NCBI RefSeq assembly: GCF_003590835.1
Contig: NZ_QYUQ01000002.1
Span: 682,001-746,000, forward strand
Direction: 5' to 3'
DNA length: 64,000 bases
Source: Noviherbaspirillum sedimenti
GTDB lineage: Bacteria; Pseudomonadota; Gammaproteobacteria; Burkholderiales; Burkholderiaceae_D
The first letter of the stretch is position 1. Every line of letters starts with the position of its first letter. A program made the translations under genes and the position numbers. Below are positions 5,889-59,776 of this stretch, one piece after another. A model generated the notes under the pieces. That model saw nothing but the letters and a program-made list of their open reading frames with translations, did no database searches and was not told where the DNA came from.

Positions 5889-7649
5889 TCAATGCGGTCC
5901 GTTACGGAACGGGTCGACGTTGGCGGGCAAGGCGTTGAAATCGATCACTTTCCAGACATAGTCTTTCTGCTGCTGCGACAGCAGCTGATAGCGCGGCCAG
6001 AAGAAGAGGTGGTCGTCTCCGGACATGAACGAGTTGTTGTCGAAGACCATGCGCTTGGGGCATAGAATGCCACAGGTGTAATTGGTCCAGTCATTCCAGG
6101 CAGTCTGGCCGTCGAAGAGCTGGCTGGGTCGGCCGGTACGGGCGAAGGTCGATACATACCTGATGAATTTGTCCGACAGACTCTTCCGCGAAGTCGCGTT
6201 GCTGGCATCCCAGGCGAAGTGCATGAAATTCGGTTCGTTCGTCACGTAGTTCCCGAACAGCAGCGCGATGTCGATGCCATGGTAAGCGCCAAGGGTATTC
6301 TTCCACGGAGAGGGCGTATCGTCCCAGTTGAAGTTGTAACGATAGAGTCGGTCGGGACCACTGGTCAAACGCAGAAGCCGGACCACGTTGTCGATGGTGA
6401 GATCGAGCGCATATGAGATCGCTTCGTGCGTTTGCGTATAGATCGGCTGGAACTCGGGCTTGATCAGGTCGTTGGTCGTCACCGTGCCGGGCGCGGCATA
6501 GTTGACCAGATTCCAGAACGCTTGCGGACTCGGCTTGCCCATCCCGAACGAGTAGGCAAAGTACGAGCCCTCGTCGTGCGTGGAGCCGATCATCAGAGGC
6601 ACCTGGTTGTAGATGCCCGCCACCAGATCGACCAGTCCACCCTTGCGAATGACCGTGCCATCGGTAAAGTGCCCGGGTACGATGGGCGACGGCGTGAATT
6701 TCATGATCTGCGCCGCACTGGCGTTGCGCAGAATCGCGCTGATCTGCGCATTGCTCATCCCGGCCCGTTGCGCCGCCGCCTGCGCAGTGTCGGACGCACT
6801 GCCCATGTCCACCAGCAGCTTATCGATCATCGAATTGGCCGCCACGGTGCCGACGGCTGCCGGATAGCTGTTGGGGACGCCCGACATGCACATCGCGCGA
6901 TGGAATTTGTTGGCCGCCAGCGGCGACTGCAGCAGCCCCCAGGCATTGATGCAGCCGGCCGACTGGCCCGCCACCGTTACCAGCCCCGGGTTGCCGCCAA
7001 AGGCGCGGATATTGCTCTGCACCCAATCCAGACCGCGTACCAGATCCAGCGTCGCAAAATTGCCCGAATCGTCCTTGGCGTTGCCGGTCTTGAGCGCCGG
7101 ATGGTTCAGAAAGCCCAGCATGCCGAGCCGGTACTGCACCGTTACCACCACCATGTTGGCCTTGTTGGCGAGATAGGCGCCGTTATACAGAGGCTCTTTT
7201 GCCGATCCCTTGGTGTTGCTGCCGCCGTGAATCCAGAAGAATACCGGCAGGTTGTCGGCGTTCGTGTTGGGCCGCCACACGTTCAGGTACAGGCAATCCT
7301 CGCTGCCCACCGGCTGGTCGAAGGTAGCCGGATCGGGTTCGCCGAAGAAGTTGCCGACCTGGGCGCACATGCTGGCGAAGCTGGTGGCTGCTTTCGATCC
7401 GCTCCAGGGCAGCGGCGGCTGCGGTGCGCGCCAGCGCAGGTTGCCCACCGGTGGCTGGGCAAAGGGGACGCCGAGAAACGCCTGGGTGTTGCTGGCGTCG
7501 AATTTGCCATAAATCTGGCCGGCGTCCAGCGTGCGGGTGAGGTTTTGGTCATAGACAGCCGATGCGCTGAGCGACAGGCCGAAGCTGGCGCAGAAGAGTG
7601 CAGCGCGAACGAGCGCACGGGGAAAACGCCGGTAATCGCTTAGTTTCAT
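5889..7649 (-). CDS. Secreted type-B carboxylesterase/lipase family protein
   Basis: 586 residues with an N-terminal signal peptide (about 1-31, cleavage near SASA). The type-B carboxylesterase marks are clear: EDCLYLNVW (about 117-125), the oxyanion HGG (141-143), the nucleophile elbow GQSAG with Ser230, a later acidic segment THDEGSYF, and a histidine in GAYHGID. It hydrolyses carboxylic esters outside the cytoplasm; the substrate is unknown. A TACCC-N4-GGGTA palindrome lies about 80-95 bp upstream of the ATG, and the LAL regulator gene follows in the same direction, suggesting an inducible polyester, ester or lipid degradation function. Confidence 0.85.
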   Translation of the reverse strand: MKLSDYRRFPRALVRAALFCASFGLSLSASAVYDQNLTRTLDAGQIYGKFDASNTQAFLGVPFAQPPVGNLRWRAPQPPLPWSGSKAATSFASMCAQVGNFFGEPDPATFDQPVGSEDCLYLNVWRPNTNADNLPVFFWIHGGSNTKGSAKEPLYNGAYLANKANMVVVTVQYRLGMLGFLNHPALKTGNAKDDSGNFATLDLVRGLDWVQSNIRAFGGNPGLVTVAGQSAGCINAWGLLQSPLAANKFHRAMCMSGVPNSYPAAVGTVAANSMIDKLLVDMGSASDTAQAAAQRAGMSNAQISAILRNASAAQIMKFTPSPIVPGHFTDGTVIRKGGLVDLVAGIYNQVPLMIGSTHDEGSYFAYSFGMGKPSPQAFWNLVNYAAPGTVTTNDLIKPEFQPIYTQTHEAISYALDLTIDNVVRLLRLTSGPDRLYRYNFNWDDTPSPWKNTLGAYHGIDIALLFGNYVTNEPNFMHFAWDASNATSRKSLSDKFIRYVSTFARTGRPSQLFDGQTAWNDWTNYTCGILCPKRMVFDNNSFMSGDDHLFFWPRYQLLSQQQKDYVWKVIDFNALPANVDPFRNGPH

Positions 7650-7730
7650 TTTGTCTCATCCATATCTATGTTTTATTAAAAAGCAAACTATTTTTTAGCG
7701 AAGCATATAGATGATCTAAAACAATGTCCC

Positions 7731-7744
7731 TACCCCTTAGGGTA
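7731..7744. promoter_or_regulatory. TACCC-CTTA-GGGTA palindrome upstream of esterase
   Basis: A perfect 5-bp inverted repeat with a 4-nt spacer, 82-95 bp upstream of the esterase start. The position suits a regulator-binding site for the esterase promoter, perhaps for the LAL protein; no binding site consensus was available to confirm this. Confidence 0.35.
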
Positions 7745-7821
7745 AATTTGGGAGTGGTATTAGCATGAAAGATGTTGGATTCAGCCGACTGGGTGGCGGA
7801 TTTTTCGGCGCGAACGTACGC

Positions 7822-7856
7822 GCAGCAGAATGCAGGGATGCCCCGGATTCTGCTGC
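7822..7856 (-). terminator. Hairpin downstream of the WGR-like pseudogene
   Basis: GCAGCAGAAT (7822-7831) pairs perfectly with ATTCTGCTGC (7847-7856) around a loop that itself contains GGG-ATG-CCC. It lies 60 bp past the stop of the minus-strand WGR-like gene. No T-run follows on either strand, so a terminator role is only possible; it could also be a palindromic repeat. Confidence 0.3.
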
Positions 7857-7915
7857 ACGTTAATTAGGGCTTGTTATGAGAATGGAGGCATTACGTCAGT
7901 AATGCTCGGCGGGTT

Positions 7916-8195
7916 TCAGTTGGATGAAAAAGTCTGGAAGGGAACAGGCGCAAAGCCCTGTTTTCCGAGTTTCTTTGCCAGTGCTGCCAGCGCCGCCACG
8001 CCTTCTTCGACGCCGGCGACCTGTTTCCTGGCTTGGCCCCCAGGACCGCAGCAGCTGCCAGTCTCCGACAAGATCCTGAATCAGATGGGCCGTATACACT
8101 ACGCCGTCGCCGACAAATTTTAGGCTGTGCGGGCAGGGCGCTGTGACGGGTAAGGGCAAGGTATTGCCTTGGTCGGCAGGATCGATCATGTTCAT
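7916..8195 (-). pseudogene. WGR-domain-like small protein gene, broken by one frameshift
   Basis: One frame starts at the ATG at 8195 and reads through a VVYTAHLIQDLVGDWQLLRSWG segment typical of WGR-like domains. It then loses sense at a G5 run (minus strand, 8037-8041). Removing one G switches to a frame reading on as VEEGVAALAALAKKLGKQGF, the usual helical end of such domains, with a TGA at 7916-7918. The two halves together make a plausible protein of about 92 residues. Either this is a real one-base frameshift or a sequencing error in a homopolymer. A Shine-Dalgarno is not evident. Confidence 0.55.
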
Positions 8196-8539
8196 GCGCC
8201 GCAGCGGCCAGGATTTCTCAGGGGGTGAAAAGCGGTTGGGTGGAAACGTTGCGCTGCAATTATAGTGAGGTAATGGCATTTGCGGCAACGCCCCCAGGAA
8301 CCGTCGGCCGGTGCCGGGCAGAGATCCCAGCATTCTCGCTCAACGCCATCATCTCCATTGTTTGCTCCACGCCTGACTGTATCTGCCATAGGTCCCTTGC
8401 GCTATATCAACAAAACTTTCTCGACAGTTGTCACTTTGGATACTGGTGACAGTAATATGTAGCGGGATATCCTGCCTCCGCACGCAACGATCACAAGGCT
8501 GGAATTCGTCAAGAACGCACAATAAACAGGAGGCAGGCC
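8196..8539. other. Intergenic region upstream of the acetate operon
   Basis: 344 bp without a convincing gene. It contains the candidate promoter with embedded inverted repeat at 8428-8456 and the AGGAGG ribosome site just before the DUF485 start. Minus-strand reading frames here continue the WGR-like frame upstream but show no coding features. Confidence 0.5.
8428..8456 (+). promoter_or_regulatory. Candidate promoter with operator for yjcH-actP
   Basis: TTGTCA (8428-8433), a 17-bp spacer and AGTAAT (8451-8456) form a sigma-70-like promoter with a good -35 and a weak -10. An inverted repeat TGTCAC (8429-8434) / GTGACA (8446-8451) spans it, so a bound regulator would block or remodel the promoter. 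Transcription would begin near 8463, about 77 nt before the first ATG. Confidence 0.45.
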
Positions 8540-8845
8540 ATGGAAGAGAATCTCGTCCGGCGAATCGCATCCAATCCCCGGTATCAGAAACTTGTCGCGG
8601 TGCGCACGAAATTCGGCTGGACGCTGGCCGTGCTGATGCTGATAGTCTATTACGGCTACATCCTGCTGATCGCTTTCAACAAGGAATTGCTCGCCAAAAG
8701 AATCGGCGATGGCGTGATGACCTGGGGAATACCGATCGGCCTCTTCGTGATTCTGTTTACCGTGATCATCACCGGCATTTATGTCTCGCGCGCCAACAAG
8801 GAATTCGACGACCTGACCGCAGCGATCCGCAAGGAGGTGCTGTGA
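8540..8845 (+). CDS. yjcH: DUF485 membrane protein paired with acetate permease
   Basis: 101 residues. Two membrane helices (about 28-48 and 60-82) and a charged C-terminus match the DUF485 (YjcH) family that is nearly always encoded just upstream of the ActP acetate symporter. The start is fixed by AGGAGG about 6 nt upstream. Its TGA overlaps the actP ATG (TGATG), so translation is coupled. The molecular role is not established; it is thought of as an accessory subunit of the permease. Confidence 0.9.
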
Positions 8846-10509
8846 TGGCCGACTTCAAGCATATTCCCGCCAGTCTCCTGCTGATGACTTGTGCAGGCGC
8901 CGCCTGCGCTGCCGGCGATTCGCTCGGGCAGGCTGTCAAGCAGCCGACCAACTGGACTGCGATCGCCATGTTCGCGGTGTTCGTGGTATTTACCCTGTTC
9001 ATCACCAAATGGGCGGCGTCCAAGACCAAATCCGCCGCTGACTTTTATACGGCGGGCGGCGGCATCACCGGCTTCCAGAATGGCCTGGCGATCGCCGGCG
9101 ACTACATGTCGGCGGCTTCCTTTCTCGGTATTTCAGCGGCGGTGTACCTCAACGGCTATGACGGCCTGATCTATTCGATCGGCTTCCTGGTCGGCTGGCC
9201 GGTACTGACCTTCCTGATGGCCGAGCGCCTGCGCAATCTCGGGCGCTTTACTTTCGCCGATGTCGCCGCCTATCGTTTTTCACAAACGCCGATCCGCGTG
9301 TTCGCGGCTTCCGGCACGCTGGTGGTGGTGGCGTTTTACCTGATCGCCCAGATGGTTGGCGCCGGCCAGTTGATCAAGCTGCTGTTCGGCCTCGAATACT
9401 GGATGGCGGTGGTCATCGTCGGCACCCTGATGATGGTGTACGTGTTGTTTGGCGGCATGACGGCAACCACCTGGGTGCAGATCATCAAGGCGATCATGCT
9501 GTTGTCTGGCGCCACCTTCATGGTCTTTATGGTGCTGTACCAGTTCAATTTCAGTCCGGAGGCACTGTTTGCGAAAGCGGTGGAGGTGCATCCGAAGGCG
9601 CAGGCGATCATGGGGCCGGGCGGTTTCATCAAGGATCCCATTTCGGCGATTTCGTTCGGCATGGCGCTGATGTTCGGTACCGCTGGCCTGCCGCATATCC
9701 TGATGCGCTTCTTTACCGTGCCGAGCGCGAAGGAGGCGCGCAAGTCGGTGTTCTGGGCCACCACCTGGATCGCTTATTTCTATATGCTGACCTTTATCAT
9801 CGGTTTTGGCGCGATCGTCCTGGTCAGTACCAATCCAGTCTACAAAGATATGGCGGGCAAACTGCTGGGCGGCGACAACATGGCGGCAGTGCACCTGGCC
9901 ACAGCAGTTGGCGGTAATGTCTTCCTCGGCTTCATCTCCGCCGTGGCGTTCGCCACCATTCTCGCAGTGGTGGCCGGCCTGACACTGTCGGGTGCTTCGG
10001 CGGTATCGCACGACCTGTATTCCACCGTCATCAAGAAGGGCAGGGCCAGCAGCAAGGACGAACTCGGCGTTTCCCGCATTACCACAGTGGTGCTGGGTGT
10101 GGTGGCGGTCATCCTGGGGATCGTCTTCGAGAAGCAGAACATCGCCTTCATGGTGTCGCTGGCCTTCGCCGTCGCGGCATCGGCCACCTTTCCGGTATTG
10201 TTCATGTCGGTGATGTGGAAGGATTGCACCACGCGCGGCGCCACCATCGGCGGCTTCATCGGCCTGGTCACTGCGGTGGGCCTGACCATCCTGTCGAAGT
10301 CGGTGTGGGTGGATGTGCTGCACAATGCCACGGCGATTTTTCCCTACACGTCGCCGGCGCTGTTTTCCATGACCGCGGGCTTCGTCGGCATCTGGCTGTT
10401 TTCGATCATGGACAATAGCGAACGGGCACGCCTGGACCGCGCAGGTTATGAAGCGCAGAAAGTGCGTTCGGAAACCGGCATCGGCGCGGCGGCGGCGTCC
10501 GGCCATTGA
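8845..10509 (+). CDS. actP: Cation/acetate symporter
   Basis: 554 residues of the sodium:solute symporter (SSS) family, rich in membrane helices and preceded by a cleavable-looking N-terminal signal (about 1-22). The segments [27 protein letters not shown] and [15 protein letters not shown] are typical of ActP, which imports acetate and other short carboxylates with a cation. The ATG at 8845 overlaps the yjcH stop and is preceded by AAGGAGGTG; an upstream in-frame extension was rejected because it runs over yjcH in another frame. The transporter-type sensor kinase downstream suggests carboxylate-responsive control. Confidence 0.93.
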
Positions 10510-54082: not shown

Positions 54083-54295
54083 TCAGAAGTTCATGATCAA
54101 GCCCACGCGCAGGGCACGCGGCTCCGCTGGATGGGTATGAATATCGCTGACCGGCGCGGCTTCGTTACGCAGCTGCGATTTGTAGAAATAGTCGATGTCG
54201 CTGATCTTGCGGTTGAACAGGTTCAAGACTTCGGCCATGAGCTTGATATCCTTTGTAATCGCGTAACCCAGCTTGGCATTGACCAAGGTCGACGA
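54083..54295 (-). pseudogene. C-terminal stump of a TonB-dependent receptor
   Basis: About 70 residues remain, beginning near TLVNAKLGYAI. They show the last beta-strands of a TonB receptor: LMAEVLNLFNRKISDIDYFYKS, the DIHTHPAEPRALRVGL segment and a terminal Phe. The fragment begins right after the DUF2149 stop, with no plug domain or signal, so the rest was deleted. Its place at the end of the riboswitch operon suggests the receptor once belonged to it. The frame reads upstream into DUF2149 DNA without homology. Confidence 0.8.
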
Positions 54296-54300
54296 TAATG

Positions 54301-54681
54301 TTATTGGCTTTGTTTGCGATCGGCAGTCGGCCCGGATTCGATCAGCGGCCGCTTCTGGGCTTCCATGGCGGCTGCATCGATCAGCACCAGCTTGCCGGTT
54401 TTCGGGTCCCGGAATACTTCGCCGACGCGATCGTAGCCGCTGCCGTTCTGGGTAACACCGCTGGCGGGCCGCTCGATTTCCTGGCCTTTTTCCACCGGCT
54501 TCGGCACATTCAGTGCGCTGTGCGTGCCGGCTGCCAGCGCCGCGAGCAGTCCGCAAGCGAAGACGAGCATGACATCGACCAGGTTGACAAGGCTTGCACG
54601 CGGATCTTCGTCATGGTCGTCGAAGCGGGCATCGAGCCGGGAATAGAGGCGCAGGCGTTTGCGTGGCTCGTGGTCACTCAT
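54301..54681 (-). CDS. DUF2149 protein, ExbD/TolR-like
   Basis: 126 residues. A charged cytoplasmic N-terminus, one membrane helix (about 31-50) and a periplasmic tail. The helix begins LVNLVDVMLVF: Asp36 followed by VMLV matches the proton-carrying Asp motif of ExbD/TolR (IDVMLV), so the protein is probably the D-type partner of the channel gene upstream. Its ATG overlaps that gene's stop by 4 bp (ATGA). The periplasmic segment DRVGEVFRDPKTGKLVLID is family-typical. Last intact gene of the cobN-like operon. Confidence 0.85.
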   Translation of the reverse strand: MSDHEPRKRLRLYSRLDARFDDHDEDPRASLVNLVDVMLVFACGLLAALAAGTHSALNVPKPVEKGQEIERPASGVTQNGSGYDRVGEVFRDPKTGKLVLIDAAAMEAQKRPLIESGPTADRKQSQ

Positions 54682-55112
54682 GCCATTGCCTCCAGCGTTT
54701 CCTCATACCACCGGCGGCGCAGCTTGCCGACGACCAGGCCTGCGATACCCGCGACGAGGCCGAGCACTGTCGCGTCGAAGGCGACCGTGACGGCACTGGC
54801 CAATTGCCCGGGATCGCCTTTGCCGAGCGCCGCGAGTCCCGGCCCCAGCGGGATAATGGTTGCCATCAGGCCAAGCATGGGCGGAATGCGGGCAAGCAGG
54901 TCGGCGCGTTCGAGGCGGTGACGGGCGACATGTTGCACGCGCAGCACATCGCCGCTTGCCCTGAGCCTGGCCAGGCCGTAAAAACGTTCGCCGGTGGCGA
55001 TGCCGGCTTCGATCAGTGCAATCGCGCAGGCCAGTAACAATGCGGCCAGTGCGGGCGCAAGCAGCCAGGTGACAGCATCGTGCAGCCAGGTAAAGGATAG
55101 CAACTCATTCAT
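54678..55112 (-). CDS. MotA/TolQ/ExbB-like proton channel protein
   Basis: 144 residues with three membrane helices (about 17-38, 77-98, 106-128). The second and third contain LGLMATIIPLGPGLAALG and VAFDATVLGLVAGIAGLVVG, the ExbB/TolQ channel motifs with conserved Thr. It is shorter than E. coli ExbB (244 residues) and keeps only the core. It overlaps the cobN-like stop by 4 bp and the DUF2149 start by 4 bp. Together with DUF2149 it probably forms a proton-driven motor for the CobN-like protein. Confidence 0.88.
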   Translation of the reverse strand: MNELLSFTWLHDAVTWLLAPALAALLLACAIALIEAGIATGERFYGLARLRASGDVLRVQHVARHRLERADLLARIPPMLGLMATIIPLGPGLAALGKGDPGQLASAVTVAFDATVLGLVAGIAGLVVGKLRRRWYEETLEAMA

Positions 55113-58100
55113 TGAAAACTCCTTGTAAGTGAAATGGGTTTCGCGCCGCGCCACAAGCCGAGGGCAAACAGGGCGAAGCCGGCGGCGAGAAGGCCGAGCA
55201 GGTTGATGATGGTGGCAGCGGGATCGCTTGCCGGAGCTTCGGGTTCGGTCAGTTCGTAGTAACGTGGGGCGGCTTCGGGCGTGGCTGGTGCTGCAGCCGC
55301 TTCGGCAGGTGCTGCCGGGTTGTTGGCCGTGCCAGTCTTGACAGCTGTGGGCGGAGGTGCAACGGCAGAAGTCTCGCCGCGCGCTTTGGCCAGTGTTACG
55401 CCGAGCGCCTGGGCGTCGGCAGCGTCGAGCTGCGGCGCCAGCCATTGCCACATCGGGTGGTCGGGCGCCGTGTGGCCGCTGCCGGGCAGGCCGTTCTTCG
55501 CGACCAGACGGGCTAACTCGCTGCCCAGTTGCCTGATGGTGGCAGCGTCTGTTTTCCAGAAGCCCTTTTCCGCGGCGACCATGAAGATGGAAAGCATGTG
55601 CGCCTTGACATGGGCATTCTGGCCTTGGCCGAGGAACTGCGGCAGGCCAAGTTTTTTTGCATCGTCGAAGTAGACAGCTTTCACTTCATCCCAGGCCCAG
55701 TTCTTGACCAGGTCCGGGCGGGTGACTTGCCAGCCCCACAGGTTTTCGAGGAACTCCGTGCCCATCGTGCGGGCACCTGCATAGCCGTGGCCCATCAATG
55801 GCTTGAGCCAGGCGGGATTGAGGAAACGGCCGCGCAGTTCGCCCAGCAGTGCGCTGGCCAGCGGCTCGATGTCGGCCCGGCCGGGTTCAGCATGCTGCAG
55901 GATCAGCGCCTCCGGCGGACGGCCGGTGCGGCCCTCGATGGCCAGCGACAATCCGCCGAGATAGTCGAAGGCGTCATTGTTGTCGAGCAGTCCGTACAGG
56001 TTGCTGGCACGGCCGTGGTAGGTGCGGCCGATGCCCACGAGCGCAGTGTCGAAGGCTGCATGACTGGCTTCGCCGCTATCGGCAAGGCCGTAGGCGTGAC
56101 CCATGCGCCTGCGGTAAGCGCGGCCGATCTCGTCGCGCTCTCGCCAGGCGCCGGAGCGTTCGGTCAGGCGGTTGACGCCAGCGCCGTAGGCGCCGGGGGC
56201 ATCGCCGAAGATGCGCAGCGCGGCGGAACGGCCGGCTTCCGGGGTCGACAGTCCGGATTGTTCGAGTACGGCGAGCCGGTGCAGCCATTCGCGCGCAACA
56301 CGGTTGTCACTCACCGCTTCGCGGCCCCAGGCAGCTGTCGGCACCGGCGCCAGCGCGGCGGCCAGGGCCTCCTTCAGTTGGGGGCGTTGCTCGGCCAGGC
56401 CGGCAGCAGAGGCGGCCAGCGCCAGGCGACCGGCGCGGTCGATCAAATTGATCAGGTTAGGATAGAGGTCGCGGAACAGGCCGGAGGTGGTGACGATCAC
56501 GTCACGTCGTCCCACCCCCTGCTTGAGGCGAACGTCGGTGACGATGCCGCGGGCGTTCCATACTGGTTCGGCCCCCATCAGCGCGAGCGAGAACGCGACC
56601 ATCACGCCTTCGTCGCGCACGGCGTCGGATGCCCAGAGGATGACGCCTTCGGAGCCTTGTGCCGGTTTGTCGCGGGCCGCAGCCTTGCTGGCCAGCGCCT
56701 CTCCCAGCCGGTAGCCGACCCGGGTAGGCAGGATGTCGCCGTCGATGGCATGGAAATTTCGGCCGGTCGGCAGCGCCTCCGGCGAGCGCAGCGGGTCATT
56801 GCCTTTGCCCGGCGCGATATAGCGCCCATCCAGGCCGGCCAGCAGGCCAAGCATTTCGAGTCGTGGCGAGTCGGCCAGCTTGCGGCTGATTGCCGGATCG
56901 TCGATGCCGCCTTTTTTCATCGAAGCGAGCATCAGGTCCAGCGACGCCTGGCTCCACTGGCGCCCGAAAATGTGCAGGCCGTAGGGCATGAATTTTTCCT
57001 GCAGCTTGGTCAGGTAGTGGCCGATTTCATGGGCCAGCAGGTCGTCGTCGGCTGCTTCAAAACCGATGCCGCGCACGGCCAGCACGTCGGCCATTGAAGC
57101 TTCCAGTTCGGCTTTCAGGTTCAGTGCCACAACTTGTTCCCGCATGGTGCGGGCGGCCTGGGCCTTGAGCGATTCGCTGGATGCGGCTTCGAAGCTCTCG
57201 ACGACCTGGCGCAAGGCCAGCAGCTGGTCATAGAGCGGTGTCGAAGCAAGCGGCGGCGTCAGGTGATCGACGATCACGGCCAGGCCGCGCCGCTTGGCCT
57301 GCGTGCCTTCGCCGACGCCGTCGACAATATAGGGATAAATGCCGGGCAGGTCGGCGGCGATCAGGCTGGGATAGTCGTCCGCCGCCAAGCCGACGGCCTT
57401 GCCGGGCAGGAATTCATAGGTCGAATGGCGGCCGACGTGCACCAGCGCGTCGGCCTTGAAGCGGTCGCGTAGCCAGTGGTAGAAGGCGAGGTACTGATGC
57501 GGCGGCGTGACGCTGGTGTTCGCGTGCAGCAGTTCCTCATCCACTTCCCAGCCGCGCGGCGGCTGCGGGCCGATGAATATGTTGCCGAAGACGATACCTG
57601 GCACCAGCAGCTTGCCGCTATCGACCATGACTTTGCCGGGTGCGGGGCCCCAGCCCTTGAGGCCTTCGATACCGTATCCGGTAAGGCGGCGGATGAGCGG
57701 CGTGAGGGCAACGCAGGGCCGCTGCGGACGGTCGGCAAGACAGGCGAGGTAAGCGGCTTCGAGTGCGTCCAGATCGCGGAGGGCTTGCTGCCGCTTCGGA
57801 TGGTCGGCGCCTTCGACCAGGTGACGTAATTCCTTCAGTGCAGTATCGGCCCGCTTGCGGCCCGCGGCGCGTTCGTTGGCGGTCTCCGCTTCAAGCACTT
57901 CTGCATGCAGGCGGCCGAGAGGGCCGTCTGTCATCTCGTCGCGGACACGGGAGGGCAGTGTCGAAAACCAGCGCGCGTAGTCGGACGCCGGGACGCTCGC
58001 GATGGCGGTGCTGAGCTCGCGTAGCGCGGCACGGTCCTCCGGCAGGTTAACGCCATGCGCCATGATGCGGTCCAGCAAGGCCTCCGGCGAAGCTGGCAAT

Positions 58101-59464
58101 TCGCCTGTCGTGTAGCCGGCCGCCTTGAGTGCATGCAGCATGTCGAATAGCGATGCGGGCACATCGAGGTTATCGGCGCCGATGTTCTGGCGCCCCGGCG
58201 GATGGTTGTAATAGACGACGGCAATGCGCTTGTCGCGGTTTGCCTTGCTGCGCAAGGTCAGCCAGCGATGGACGCGCGCGGAGAGGAGGTCGATTTGCGC
58301 ATCCAATGCGACCGGCGGACGGGTCTGAATACCGGTCACGCCATCTGTTTTGCTTCGTCCCAACGCCGAGACGACGATGGGCTGGCCGATCCCTTGCAAC
58401 TCAGGCAGGGCGACACGGTACTGCACGGAGTCGGCCGGCAGGCCGTCCGGCGACAGGCGCCACTGGGTCGCGTTGCGCTCGCTCAGGCGGATTGCCTTGA
58501 AGACCGGCACATCCAGTTTCTTGAACGCGTCGATGACGGCCTCCCTGCCGTCGGCGGCCCCAACCACGAAATCCTGCAATACGATCAGTGCGGCAGGTCG
58601 CGCCGGCGCAACCAGTTCGGACAGACGCTCCAGCGCGTCACGCGAGGCGCTTCCCCAGCGGGTCAGTATCTGCACGCAGGACAGGCCGCGCTGTTCGATG
58701 CGCTGGCAGAGGGCAGCGGGCGTGCCGGCATCCATGTTGGCAAGGTCGAGTACGACGACGCTTGGCTTCGGCGCCAAGCCAAGGGAGGCGCCTCCGCCCC
58801 AGGCTGAGGCGTCGCTCAACTCTTTGCTGCCGATGCGCATGCGCAACGCCGGTTCCGGCTTCGGGGCCGACAGTGGCTGGCGCAGGTCGAGCAAGTGGGC
58901 AAACAGCGCCGTCATGTTTTCGCCGCCCCAGGCTTGCCAGACTTGGCGGGCGGCCAGCCATCGGCGCGCTGTCGGGTGGGCGTTGGCTGCGTTCAATGCC
59001 GCCGGGGGCGGGTTTTCCTGCGCCAACTGGAACAATGTGTCGGCTGGAAAGTTGCCCAGGCTTCCGGGACGGTCTGCGTCGAGGTTGCGGCTCATCAGGT
59101 TCAGGCTGGATTCCCCGTTCAGTGCGAGCACGGCGGTGCGGGGGCGGGCATGGCGCTCCAGCGCGTCCTTCAGGCGGCGCGCAGGATCACCGAAGACAGC
59201 GGCCGCGAGCACGCTGTCTGCCTGGCCGATCCATTGGCTGAGTTGCTTGTCGCTGGCTGCCATCAATTGCGCCGGGGTGCGCAGCACGATGCGGTCACCC
59301 GGATGGCTGGCGAGATGACGGTGCGCGGCCTCGATGGCGGTTGGCGCAGTACGTTCGGTGACAACGCCAAACAATGTTCCTGCCCAGCTTTGCGCAGACG
59401 TGGCGAAAAGGACGATGCAGAGCAGATAGCAAGCGAAAGGGGGATTTTTTGAGCGAGCCGGCAT
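55109..59464 (-). CDS. CobN-like chelatase, exported and membrane-anchored
   Basis: 1451 residues from the ATG at 59464; a GTG at 59515 with GGTAGG upstream is an alternative. The N-terminus is a Sec-type signal (CYLLCIVLFATSAQSWAG). The body is a full cobaltochelatase CobN / magnesium-chelatase H domain. A Pro/Ala linker and one C-terminal membrane helix (IINLLGLLAAGFALFALGLW) follow. True CobN is cytoplasmic and works with CobST; none of these nor any cob gene is nearby. The layout with ExbB/ExbD-like partners recalls HmuS-type dechelatases of Bacteroidetes (from memory). It probably inserts or removes metal in a tetrapyrrole in the periplasm. Under cobalamin riboswitch control. Confidence 0.85.
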   Translation of the reverse strand: MPARSKNPPFACYLLCIVLFATSAQSWAGTLFGVVTERTAPTAIEAAHRHLASHPGDRIVLRTPAQLMAASDKQLSQWIGQADSVLAAAVFGDPARRLKDALERHARPRTAVLALNGESSLNLMSRNLDADRPGSLGNFPADTLFQLAQENPPPAALNAANAHPTARRWLAARQVWQAWGGENMTALFAHLLDLRQPLSAPKPEPALRMRIGSKELSDASAWGGGASLGLAPKPSVVVLDLANMDAGTPAALCQRIEQRGLSCVQILTRWGSASRDALERLSELVAPARPAALIVLQDFVVGAADGREAVIDAFKKLDVPVFKAIRLSERNATQWRLSPDGLPADSVQYRVALPELQGIGQPIVVSALGRSKTDGVTGIQTRPPVALDAQIDLLSARVHRWLTLRSKANRDKRIAVVYYNHPPGRQNIGADNLDVPASLFDMLHALKAAGYTTGELPASPEALLDRIMAHGVNLPEDRAALRELSTAIASVPASDYARWFSTLPSRVRDEMTDGPLGRLHAEVLEAETANERAAGRKRADTALKELRHLVEGADHPKRQQALRDLDALEAAYLACLADRPQRPCVALTPLIRRLTGYGIEGLKGWGPAPGKVMVDSGKLLVPGIVFGNIFIGPQPPRGWEVDEELLHANTSVTPPHQYLAFYHWLRDRFKADALVHVGRHSTYEFLPGKAVGLAADDYPSLIAADLPGIYPYIVDGVGEGTQAKRRGLAVIVDHLTPPLASTPLYDQLLALRQVVESFEAASSESLKAQAARTMREQVVALNLKAELEASMADVLAVRGIGFEAADDDLLAHEIGHYLTKLQEKFMPYGLHIFGRQWSQASLDLMLASMKKGGIDDPAISRKLADSPRLEMLGLLAGLDGRYIAPGKGNDPLRSPEALPTGRNFHAIDGDILPTRVGYRLGEALASKAAARDKPAQGSEGVILWASDAVRDEGVMVAFSLALMGAEPVWNARGIVTDVRLKQGVGRRDVIVTTSGLFRDLYPNLINLIDRAGRLALAASAAGLAEQRPQLKEALAAALAPVPTAAWGREAVSDNRVAREWLHRLAVLEQSGLSTPEAGRSAALRIFGDAPGAYGAGVNRLTERSGAWRERDEIGRAYRRRMGHAYGLADSGEASHAAFDTALVGIGRTYHGRASNLYGLLDNNDAFDYLGGLSLAIEGRTGRPPEALILQHAEPGRADIEPLASALLGELRGRFLNPAWLKPLMGHGYAGARTMGTEFLENLWGWQVTRPDLVKNWAWDEVKAVYFDDAKKLGLPQFLGQGQNAHVKAHMLSIFMVAAEKGFWKTDAATIRQLGSELARLVAKNGLPGSGHTAPDHPMWQWLAPQLDAADAQALGVTLAKARGETSAVAPPPTAVKTGTANNPAAPAEAAAAPATPEAAPRYYELTEPEAPASDPAATIINLLGLLAAGFALFALGLWRGAKPISLTRSFQ

Positions 59465-59574
59465 TTTCTTCGGACGGTGTACTGAAAGGTACCAGACCAG
59501 GAGAAAAAAGCTCACGCGTACCTACCGGGCGGCAGGCATCAATCGAACCTTTCCCATCACCCCGGGGATTGGTA

Positions 59575-59765
59575 CTGCATATGCTTCAGGCCGGTCTTCT
59601 GGCTCGCCTTCATCCTTCCCCGGCCTTCCCATGCACAGGCACAGTGGTGTTTCCGGAGTCGTCAGGCTTACAGCAGCGGGGGCTGCGCCGGAATGTCTGA
59701 TCGCTCAGCGTCACCGGCTTCCCGTTTCACCCGCTCTGTGAATACGGAGCAAGGCACCTAAAGTG
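59575..59765 (-). ncRNA. Cobalamin riboswitch
   Basis: On the minus strand the leader reads, in order, GGTGCC, GGGAAGCCGGTG (59712-59723), GCCCCCGCTGCTGT (59670-59683), ACCACTG, and the B12-box AGCCAGAAGACCGGCC (59589-59604). All are in the order and spacing of the AdoCbl riboswitch. It lies about 110 bp before the cobN-like ATG and is expected to switch the operon off when cobalamin is abundant. No clear intrinsic terminator follows, so control of translation initiation is more likely. Confidence 0.92.
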
Positions 59766-59770
59766 TCGCC

Positions 59771-59776
59771 AGTATA
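59771..59776 (-). promoter_or_regulatory. Candidate -10 for the riboswitch transcript
   Basis: TATACT on the minus strand, placing the transcript start near 59764, just before the first conserved riboswitch helix. The -35 is weak. Confidence 0.4.

Follow-up and report, generated by a model that had tools for sequence, protein, structure and literature searches.

The window, by which we mean the whole 64,000-nucleotide stretch of Noviherbaspirillum sedimenti DNA that was analysed, carries on its minus strand a cobalamin riboswitch followed by genes for a CobN-like chelatase, an ExbB-like channel protein and a DUF2149 protein, with the remnant of a receptor gene behind them. The features are as follows.

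59572..59776, minus strand: cobalamin riboswitch aptamer (RF00174, model positions 1-189; 114.5 bits, E 5.7e-28; gathering score 31.5)
55109..59464, minus strand: CobN-like class I chelatase of 1451 aa when the ATG is taken as start (PF02514, 805.6 bits, E 9.4e-242)
59381..59464, minus strand: signal-peptide-like N-terminus, residues 1-28, up to SAQSWA (read from the sequence)
55151..55213, minus strand: C-terminal hydrophobic helix, likely a membrane anchor, residues 1418-1438 of the ATG form (likewise)
54678..55112, minus strand: ExbB/TolQ/MotA-family channel protein, 144 aa (PF01618, 31.9 bits, cut-off 22.9)
54301..54681, minus strand: DUF2149 protein, 126 aa, with one membrane helix and an ExbD-like Asp, D36 (PF09919, 36.3 bits, cut-off 27.1)
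54083..54300, minus strand: C-terminal remnant of a TonB-dependent receptor, 71 residues, directly behind the DUF2149 gene

A previous sequence-only reading had described a CobN-like protein with a signal peptide and an anchor, followed by ExbB-like and DUF2149 proteins, with 4-bp overlaps between successive genes. This layout is confirmed here by the open reading frames, the Pfam scores and the ATGA overlaps that join cobN to exbB (55109-55112) and exbB to the DUF2149 gene (54678-54681). The CobN-like frame spans 55109-59515 (minus strand) if a GTG start is counted, the candidate starts being GTG 59515 and ATG 59464, and the stretch ending in SAQSWA is present with either. The riboswitch of that reading was found as a full RF00174 aptamer, recovered again by a search of the whole genome, but the end given to it at 59765 was too short, as the aptamer reaches 59776. 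The stretch between aptamer and start folded no better than its shuffles (z -0.91; 35 of 200 shuffles folded at least as well). The 71-residue receptor remnant gave weak matches to receptor models, and was 45% identical to the end of the full receptor that lies directly behind DUF2149 in locus L061.

The arrangement was conserved among relatives. By an HMM-based count over 80 loci, cobN was followed by ExbB and DUF2149 in 76, while contig ends cut off the remaining four, and a PF09919 search (E 0.001) of 398 genomes disclosed 17 DUF2149 places, all of which adjoined ExbB-like and CobN-like genes. These places came from 16 genomes, an undercount of the family, because at this threshold the gene of the window itself was missed even though it passes the cut-off in a single-protein scan. 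The expected co-occurrence of CobN with the channel genes is thus borne out by both counts. A cobalamin riboswitch was present upstream on the same strand in 74 of the 80 relatives, a count that leaves out L095 (29.8 bits) and L099 (25.1 bits), which are below the RF00174 gathering score. The riboswitch of L118 was divergent only, the sole one of L122 was behind the module, and the DNA examined at L109 and L113 contained none. It was located further upstream in 24 loci, including L120, where a single transcript is doubtful because an opposite-strand ORF lies between riboswitch and module. At least two btu/cob genes were found near by on the same strand in 24 of the 80 loci, with btuB, btuC and btuD among the neighbours, and together with the riboswitches they uphold the corrinoid link that had been proposed. 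In ten loci cobB stood immediately before cobN, in every case in a carrier without CbiC; eight of these pairs came from closely related methylotroph genera, which weakens them as evidence.

We found no match to CbiC/CobH (PF02570) in the genome of the organism itself, and CbiC was missing from 64 of the 80 carriers, so that these bacteria should not make the corrin ring; some of the genomes are metagenome-assembled and such absences may be overcounted. The 16 carriers with CbiC count against a reading based on salvage by ring auxotrophs. The gene described here was the only PF02514 member of its genome, and the earlier statement that nothing of the CobN pathway is present is correct for the surroundings of the operon in the window but not for the genome, which has the late steps CobB, CobO, BluB and CbiB over cut-offs, CobU by Pfam, and CobQ. 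CobB was over its cut-off in 67 of the 80 carriers. Among the 64 that lack CbiC it was so in 51, compared with 12 of the 47 relatives that had no CobN match; the 13 carriers in which it was not over the cut-off count against our best explanation.

The sources label the protein "cobaltochelatase subunit CobN", and this name is what speaks for a conventional CobN that takes part in making B12 de novo. We rejected this possibility, which we consider extremely improbable, on the equivalog scores, the absence of CbiC, and the predicted signal peptide and anchor. The protein scored under every NCBIfam CobN and BchH equivalog cut-off and far under those for CobN (TIGR02257, 518.5 against 822.05 bits; NF004645, 596.2 against 1619), and the neighbourhoods of the 80 loci showed no match to an AAA seed. 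Canonical CobN/CobST and BchH/BchI/BchD share with it the PF02514 fold and the metal-site residues; however, their CobN and BchH rows presented neither signal peptide nor C-terminal helix, and in a de novo cluster (one example) the canonical chelatases adjoin AAA and VWA genes. The tree also placed the B12-linked proteins in a clade separate from canonical CobN, although it comprised 42 hand-chosen rows (PA1923 not among them) analysed by a quick method, and its deep branches were weak. In a hydropathy test, which excluded the truncated loci L080, L089, L092 and L115, all 77 clade proteins had an N-terminal hydrophobic segment and 74 of them a C-terminal helix, and the clade had a Cys pair of its own. 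These features support the periplasmic placement suggested earlier, as a prediction from the sequences. A Marinobacter plasmid member of the clade, with neither channel genes nor C-terminal helix, counts against the machine proposed below.

The closest known parallel is the hmuYRSTUV operon of Bacteroidota, a six-gene operon in which HmuS is a haem dechelatase (PDB 9D26), and excerpts of two reports already describe HmuS-HmuU-HmuV as the same trio (PMC10100974, PMC13227078). The putative metal-site residues H680, E684 and E719 were invariant across 77 rows and correspond to HmuS His-538 and ChlH E625/E660, H680 matching the active-site His-538. In contrast, the HmuS motif LSLDHxxEFMGG, which carries the second axial ligand His-1209 (PMC12583661, in excerpt), reads DNNDAFDYLGG here, with Asp1164 at the place of the His. 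Three canonical rows of CobN, together with one further row, likewise have Asp at this place, which favours our best explanation; its being common there in modules of other settings counts against it. The Met-rich insertion of HmuS domain IV is missing as well, the stretch being of 125 residues, whereas two HmuS rows have 227 and 414 there. On the motif and the insertion we rejected membership in HmuS, while the working principle may be shared. Neither HmuY nor HmuT is found beside the operon of the window, their place being taken in relatives by riboswitch and btu/cob genes, and an HmuT-like seed had no match in the 80 loci.

Other related systems are also known. According to PMC6460266 and PMC10846266, the CobN-like family was named BtuS by Rodionov in 2003, and in the description of these citing papers BtuS is likewise a third CobN-related type, neither CobN nor ChlH, tied to B12 regulation; the experiments on BtuS proteins of B. 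fragilis, as far as the excerpts tell, concern haem iron. B. fragilis NCTC 9343 has an hmu-like operon behind a cobalamin riboswitch, for which the authors suggest a role in cobalamin metabolism (PMC10100974, in excerpt); that operon, from a member of the Bacteroidota and with two HmuR copies, is likened to ours by description only. With the trio, the BtuS name and the B. fragilis operon in print (PMC10100974, PMC13227078, PMC6460266, all in excerpt), the term "undescribed system" was an overstatement. A receptor, a CobN-like protein, a channel protein and DUF2149 also stand together in P. aeruginosa PA1922-PA1925, which unlike the present operon is under zinc control (Zur regulon), and in the cobN-exbB-exbD-tonB cluster of Geobacter lovleyi pSZ77. 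The T. lovleyi cluster differs in having a separate TonB set and a DUF2162 permease, and its CobN-like protein falls outside the B12 clade.

Concerning the channel partners, T85 and T115 of the ExbB-like protein were identical in all aligned rows of 78, and D36 of DUF2149, which aligns with the Asp of an ExbD, was kept in all aligned rows of 77; the DUF2149 helix is predicted at 31-56 in a low-confidence model (pLDDT 63.6). Excerpts of PMC10100974 and PMC12583661 assign HmuU/HmuV to TonB, and of 76 loci 17 had a TonB receptor immediately following DUF2149 and 22 had one upstream, all of which would fit a pair that energises TonB and B12 receptors, with the CobN-like protein as a passive neighbour. 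However, the 17 DUF2149 places were all beside CobN-like genes, a T. lovleyi operon with CobN-like, ExbB and DUF2149 genes also carries a separate exbB-exbD-tonB set, and seed comparison of the 80 loci gave no TonB match. DUF2149 is present, besides, in Methanosarcina acetivorans, an organism that has no outer membrane. We consider this explanation improbable, and on the basis of the 17 places and the separate set, the predicted channel probably serves the CobN-like chelatase rather than TonB.

Two further explanations concern what the chelatase does. The cleft could bind intact cobalamin or cobinamide in the periplasm with no metal chemistry, proton force freeing the corrinoid from its outer-membrane receptor or passing it to the Btu importer. 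The btuB, btuC and btuD neighbours, the riboswitch, and the lack of any metal permease seed match (DUF2162/NicO-like included) in the 80 loci are in its favour, but the invariant metal-site residues exceed what mere binding should require, BtuF-like proteins already exist in the genome and in some operons, and the association with CobB would go unexplained; we regard it as unlikely, if worth keeping in mind. Alternatively, the protein could be a periplasmic dechelatase like HmuS that supplies cobalt by taking the metal out of a tetrapyrrole or a cobalt complex, as the identical trio and the occurrence of kin in nickel and zinc settings would suggest. This is quite unlikely: free cobalt should be of little use to the 64 carriers that lack CbiC, the missing permease and HmuT-like matches do not favour it, and a cell short of cobalamin would hardly gain from demetallating it. 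That cobalt is harvested to make B12 is unlikely where CbiC is missing.

The explanation that we prefer, at just short of an even chance, is that the operon encodes a periplasmic class I chelatase machine of the HmuS/BtuS kind, from a branch dedicated to B12, which is proton-powered and serves corrinoid salvage, most likely by loading cobalt. The parts, their conservation, the riboswitch linkage, the salvage neighbours and the absence of CbiC were computed, and from them we infer the topology, the force transfer, the substrate, and cobalt insertion and its direction. Under this model, scarcity of cobalamin would allow the riboswitch to permit expression, and the CobN-like body would lie in the periplasm, where its C-terminal helix would keep it next to an ExbB/DUF2149 channel of its own. 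This channel would pass it the proton-motive force, taking over the part that a cytoplasmic AAA+ motor plays for canonical CobN and BchH. The machine would serve corrinoid salvage in bacteria mostly unable to make the ring: TonB receptors would take up incomplete, metal-free corrinoids, cobalt would most likely be loaded in the periplasm, and Btu import would then be followed by completion through CobB, CobO, CobQ, CbiB and CobU. Two points count against this model. CobB is cytoplasmic, and periplasmic loading thus departs from the canonical order of CobB, then CobN; and HmuS, the one relative of the kind for which there are tests, takes metal out rather than inserting it (PMC12583661, in excerpt). 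The full scheme, that is, a cobaltochelatase driven in the periplasm by proton-motive force through an ExbB/DUF2149 stator in ring auxotrophs, with metal-free corrinoids taken up, loaded with cobalt, imported and finished, is possible but rather doubtful; that the operon helps in the salvage of precursors of B12 on the outer side of the inner membrane is, however, probable.

If true, this would represent a new entry point for B12 and a new power source for class I chelatases, proton flow instead of ATP, and corrinoid fragments so far uncounted as B12 sources would become usable by B12 auxotrophs. It would also provide a single idea, open to testing, on what CobN-ExbB-DUF2149 modules do in settings of haem, nickel, zinc and B12, and would correct a CobN name under which bacteria unable to make the ring pass for producers of B12.

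The operon in the window lies on the minus strand, with the following features.

59572-59776, minus strand: full-length cobalamin riboswitch (114.5 bits, E 5.7e-28)
3' of the riboswitch, minus strand: CobN-like protein of 1451 or 1468 residues (PF02514, 805.6 bits)
3' of the cobN-like gene, minus strand: ExbB-family protein of 144 residues
3' of the ExbB-family gene, minus strand: DUF2149 (PF09919) protein of 126 residues
54083-54300, minus strand, directly behind the DUF2149 gene: C-terminal 71-residue remnant of a TonB-dependent receptor

As read in the sequence, the cobN-like, ExbB-family and DUF2149 genes are linked by ATGA overlaps, and the CobN-like protein has a signal-peptide-like N-terminus and a hydrophobic helix at its C-terminus. 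It falls far under the cut-offs of the NCBI equivalog models for CobN and BchH. Since a full TonB-dependent receptor occupies the place of the 71-residue remnant in two related loci (L050 and L061), the receptor partner seems to have been lost here.

A scan of GTDB species genomes yielded 183 stretches encoding relatives, of which we analyzed the best 80 (45-85% identity in the best segment), nearly all from beta- and gammaproteobacteria according to their record titles. The sequence-only reading had linked the CobN-like gene to the channel genes, and this was borne out across the relatives: on a recount, cobN was followed by ExbB and DUF2149 genes in 76 of the 80 loci, and the remaining four run into contig ends. 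A same-strand cobalamin riboswitch was present upstream of cobN in 74/80 (46 directly 5', 24 farther upstream, up to about 8 kb, and four directly 5' and confirmed with Rfam), and at least two same-strand btu/cob salvage genes were near the module in 24/80. Four-base ATGA/GTGA ends were found for cobN in 33/80 and for exbB in 55/80 loci. In a tree of 42 rows chosen by hand, 18 rows formed one clade (SH-aLRT 100, stem 1.54), separate from the haem dechelatase HmuS, canonical CobN, BchH and the proteins of other modules. The hydropathy test disclosed an N-terminal hydrophobic segment in 77/77 rows and a C-terminal helix in 74/77. Moreover, C253 and C263 were invariant across the 77 rows and the pair was not found in rows outside the clade, which fits the prediction of a periplasmic disulphide. 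None of five genomes of the same genus as the window's host had a full-length match to its CobN-like protein, and the module is thus patchy and may be easily gained or lost.

A search of 398 Pseudomonadota genomes located PF09919 at 17 places in 16 of them, and each of the 17 adjoins an ExbB-family gene as well as a CobN-like one. The T. lovleyi ExbB/DUF2149 pair is 5' of cobN, and a distinct exbB-exbD-tonB set is 3' of it. D36, a membrane residue of DUF2149 that aligns with the Asp of an ExbD, is conserved in every aligned row of 77, and ExbB T85 and T115 in every aligned row of 78. Taken together, these sequence data point to ExbB/DUF2149 as a stator dedicated to the chelatase. Published hmu-operon studies assign the same channel pair to TonB (PMC10100974, PMC12583661) or leave its partner undecided (PMC13227078). 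The Methanosarcina acetivorans genome matches both DUF2149 and PF02514, as separate genome-level matches irrespective of neighbourhood.

Both routes to the corrin ring need CbiC/CobH, for which a profile search gave no match in the window's own genome (5.04 Mb, 99.91% complete, a single PF02514 gene). Of 289 riboswitch candidates there, 150 were scored, and these gave at least five cobalamin riboswitches, one of them leading genes for a BtuB-like receptor, cobB, cobU, btuF/C/D-like proteins, cobO, bluB, cbiB and a cobC-like protein, with cobQ near by. As CbiC/CobH is missing and late-step genes are present, the host looks like a ring auxotroph retaining the late B12 steps; according to PMC6461909, CbiC/CobH occurs in 99.1% of predicted producers vs 0.9% of non-producers. 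TonB receptors lie 3' of two further riboswitches, followed in one case by a PepSY_TM protein (locus L011, genes 6406-10142, minus strand) and in the other by an ABC transporter, 550 residues long and containing an ABC ATPase domain (L010, genes 5898-9908, minus strand), possibly a further B12 importer. PepSY proteins can act as metal-chelate reductases. The receptor and PepSY pair recurs downstream in L043, L055, L057, L060, L072, L083, L088 and L090, and a PepSY gene is 3' of the module in 8/80 relatives. The top-scoring riboswitch of this genome (L009, G000:C2:977000-989000, genes 6896-9962, minus strand) heads acyl-CoA dehydrogenase, enoyl-CoA hydratase and hydroxyisobutyryl-CoA hydrolase-like genes, which may form an acyl-CoA route that does without B12; metE is in the vicinity.

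CbiC was likewise absent from 64 of the 80 carriers (positives among the carriers plus the own genome: 12/41 in one set and 4/40 in the other). The substrate of CobB is cobyrinate or hydrogenobyrinate, and the salvage of cobinamide or cobyric acid does not require this enzyme. CobB exceeded the cut-off in 47/50 and 20/30 carriers, including 51 of the 64 without CbiC, vs 12/47 relatives with no match to the window CobN; these control genomes are of other ancestry and some carriers are MAGs, and the relation between CobB and the module is an association. In 10/80 loci cobB ends directly 5' of cobN, with a four-base overlap in seven by ORF call. All ten hosts were without CbiC, and since eight are closely related methylotrophs these cases are not independent. 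According to PMC6461909, 2.6% of predicted non-producers have cbiA/cobB vs 46% of precursor salvagers.

The titles and abstracts of the open-licence papers searched gave no description of the B12-type branch, and passages from these papers no functional test of it. PMC10100974 mentions hmu-like operons with cobalamin riboswitches in B. fragilis, and PMC3403914 a CobN encoded on a G. lovleyi plasmid next to channel genes, with no CobST. PMC6461909 points to bacteria that have cobalt chelatase annotations but no corrin genes, and PMC4542158 and PMC9431628 place the trio, alongside different partners, within the P. aeruginosa Zur regulon. Different partners also accompany the trio in hmu-type operons, within a hyp/[NiFe]-hydrogenase maturation cluster on a Runella plasmid (L124), and near an ABC system, a receptor and nikR on an Azospirillum plasmid (L164); the last two settings suggest nickel versions of the machine. 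A permease-like gene accompanies it in T. lovleyi (DUF2162) and Runella (weakly NicO-like), and these permease seeds had no match across the 80 B12-type loci. A Marinobacter plasmid (L125, 7992-12194) carries a B12-clade protein with neither C-terminal helix nor neighbouring exbB/DUF2149, adjoining cobB, cobO, cobQ and btu genes. A Cupriavidus sp. EM10 plasmid (L126, 7248-18176) has two CobN-like genes close together, one of them module-type, with no channel genes labelled, the other canonical and accompanied by AAA and VWA partners. Members of a different clade of CobN-like proteins (L154, L155) also lie among btu/cob genes, and thus the link to B12 apparently arose more than once.

At the level of sequence, the operon has a riboswitch that could control it, a secretion signal, an anchor, channel and metal-site residues and a salvage context. 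Cobalamin would switch the operon off, the C-terminal anchor would dock onto ExbB/DUF2149, and proton flow would drive the chelatase cleft. Cobalt might then be inserted into a metal-free or incomplete corrin, which would then enter by way of the Btu importer and reach CobB, CobO and CobQ; this last part is the weakest, and HmuS works in the opposite direction. The CobN-like module may instead carry corrinoids without any chemistry, a less likely alternative. Our best explanation, tentative because the cobalt-insertion step is putative, is that the module may be a periplasmic, proton-powered machine for corrinoid salvage.
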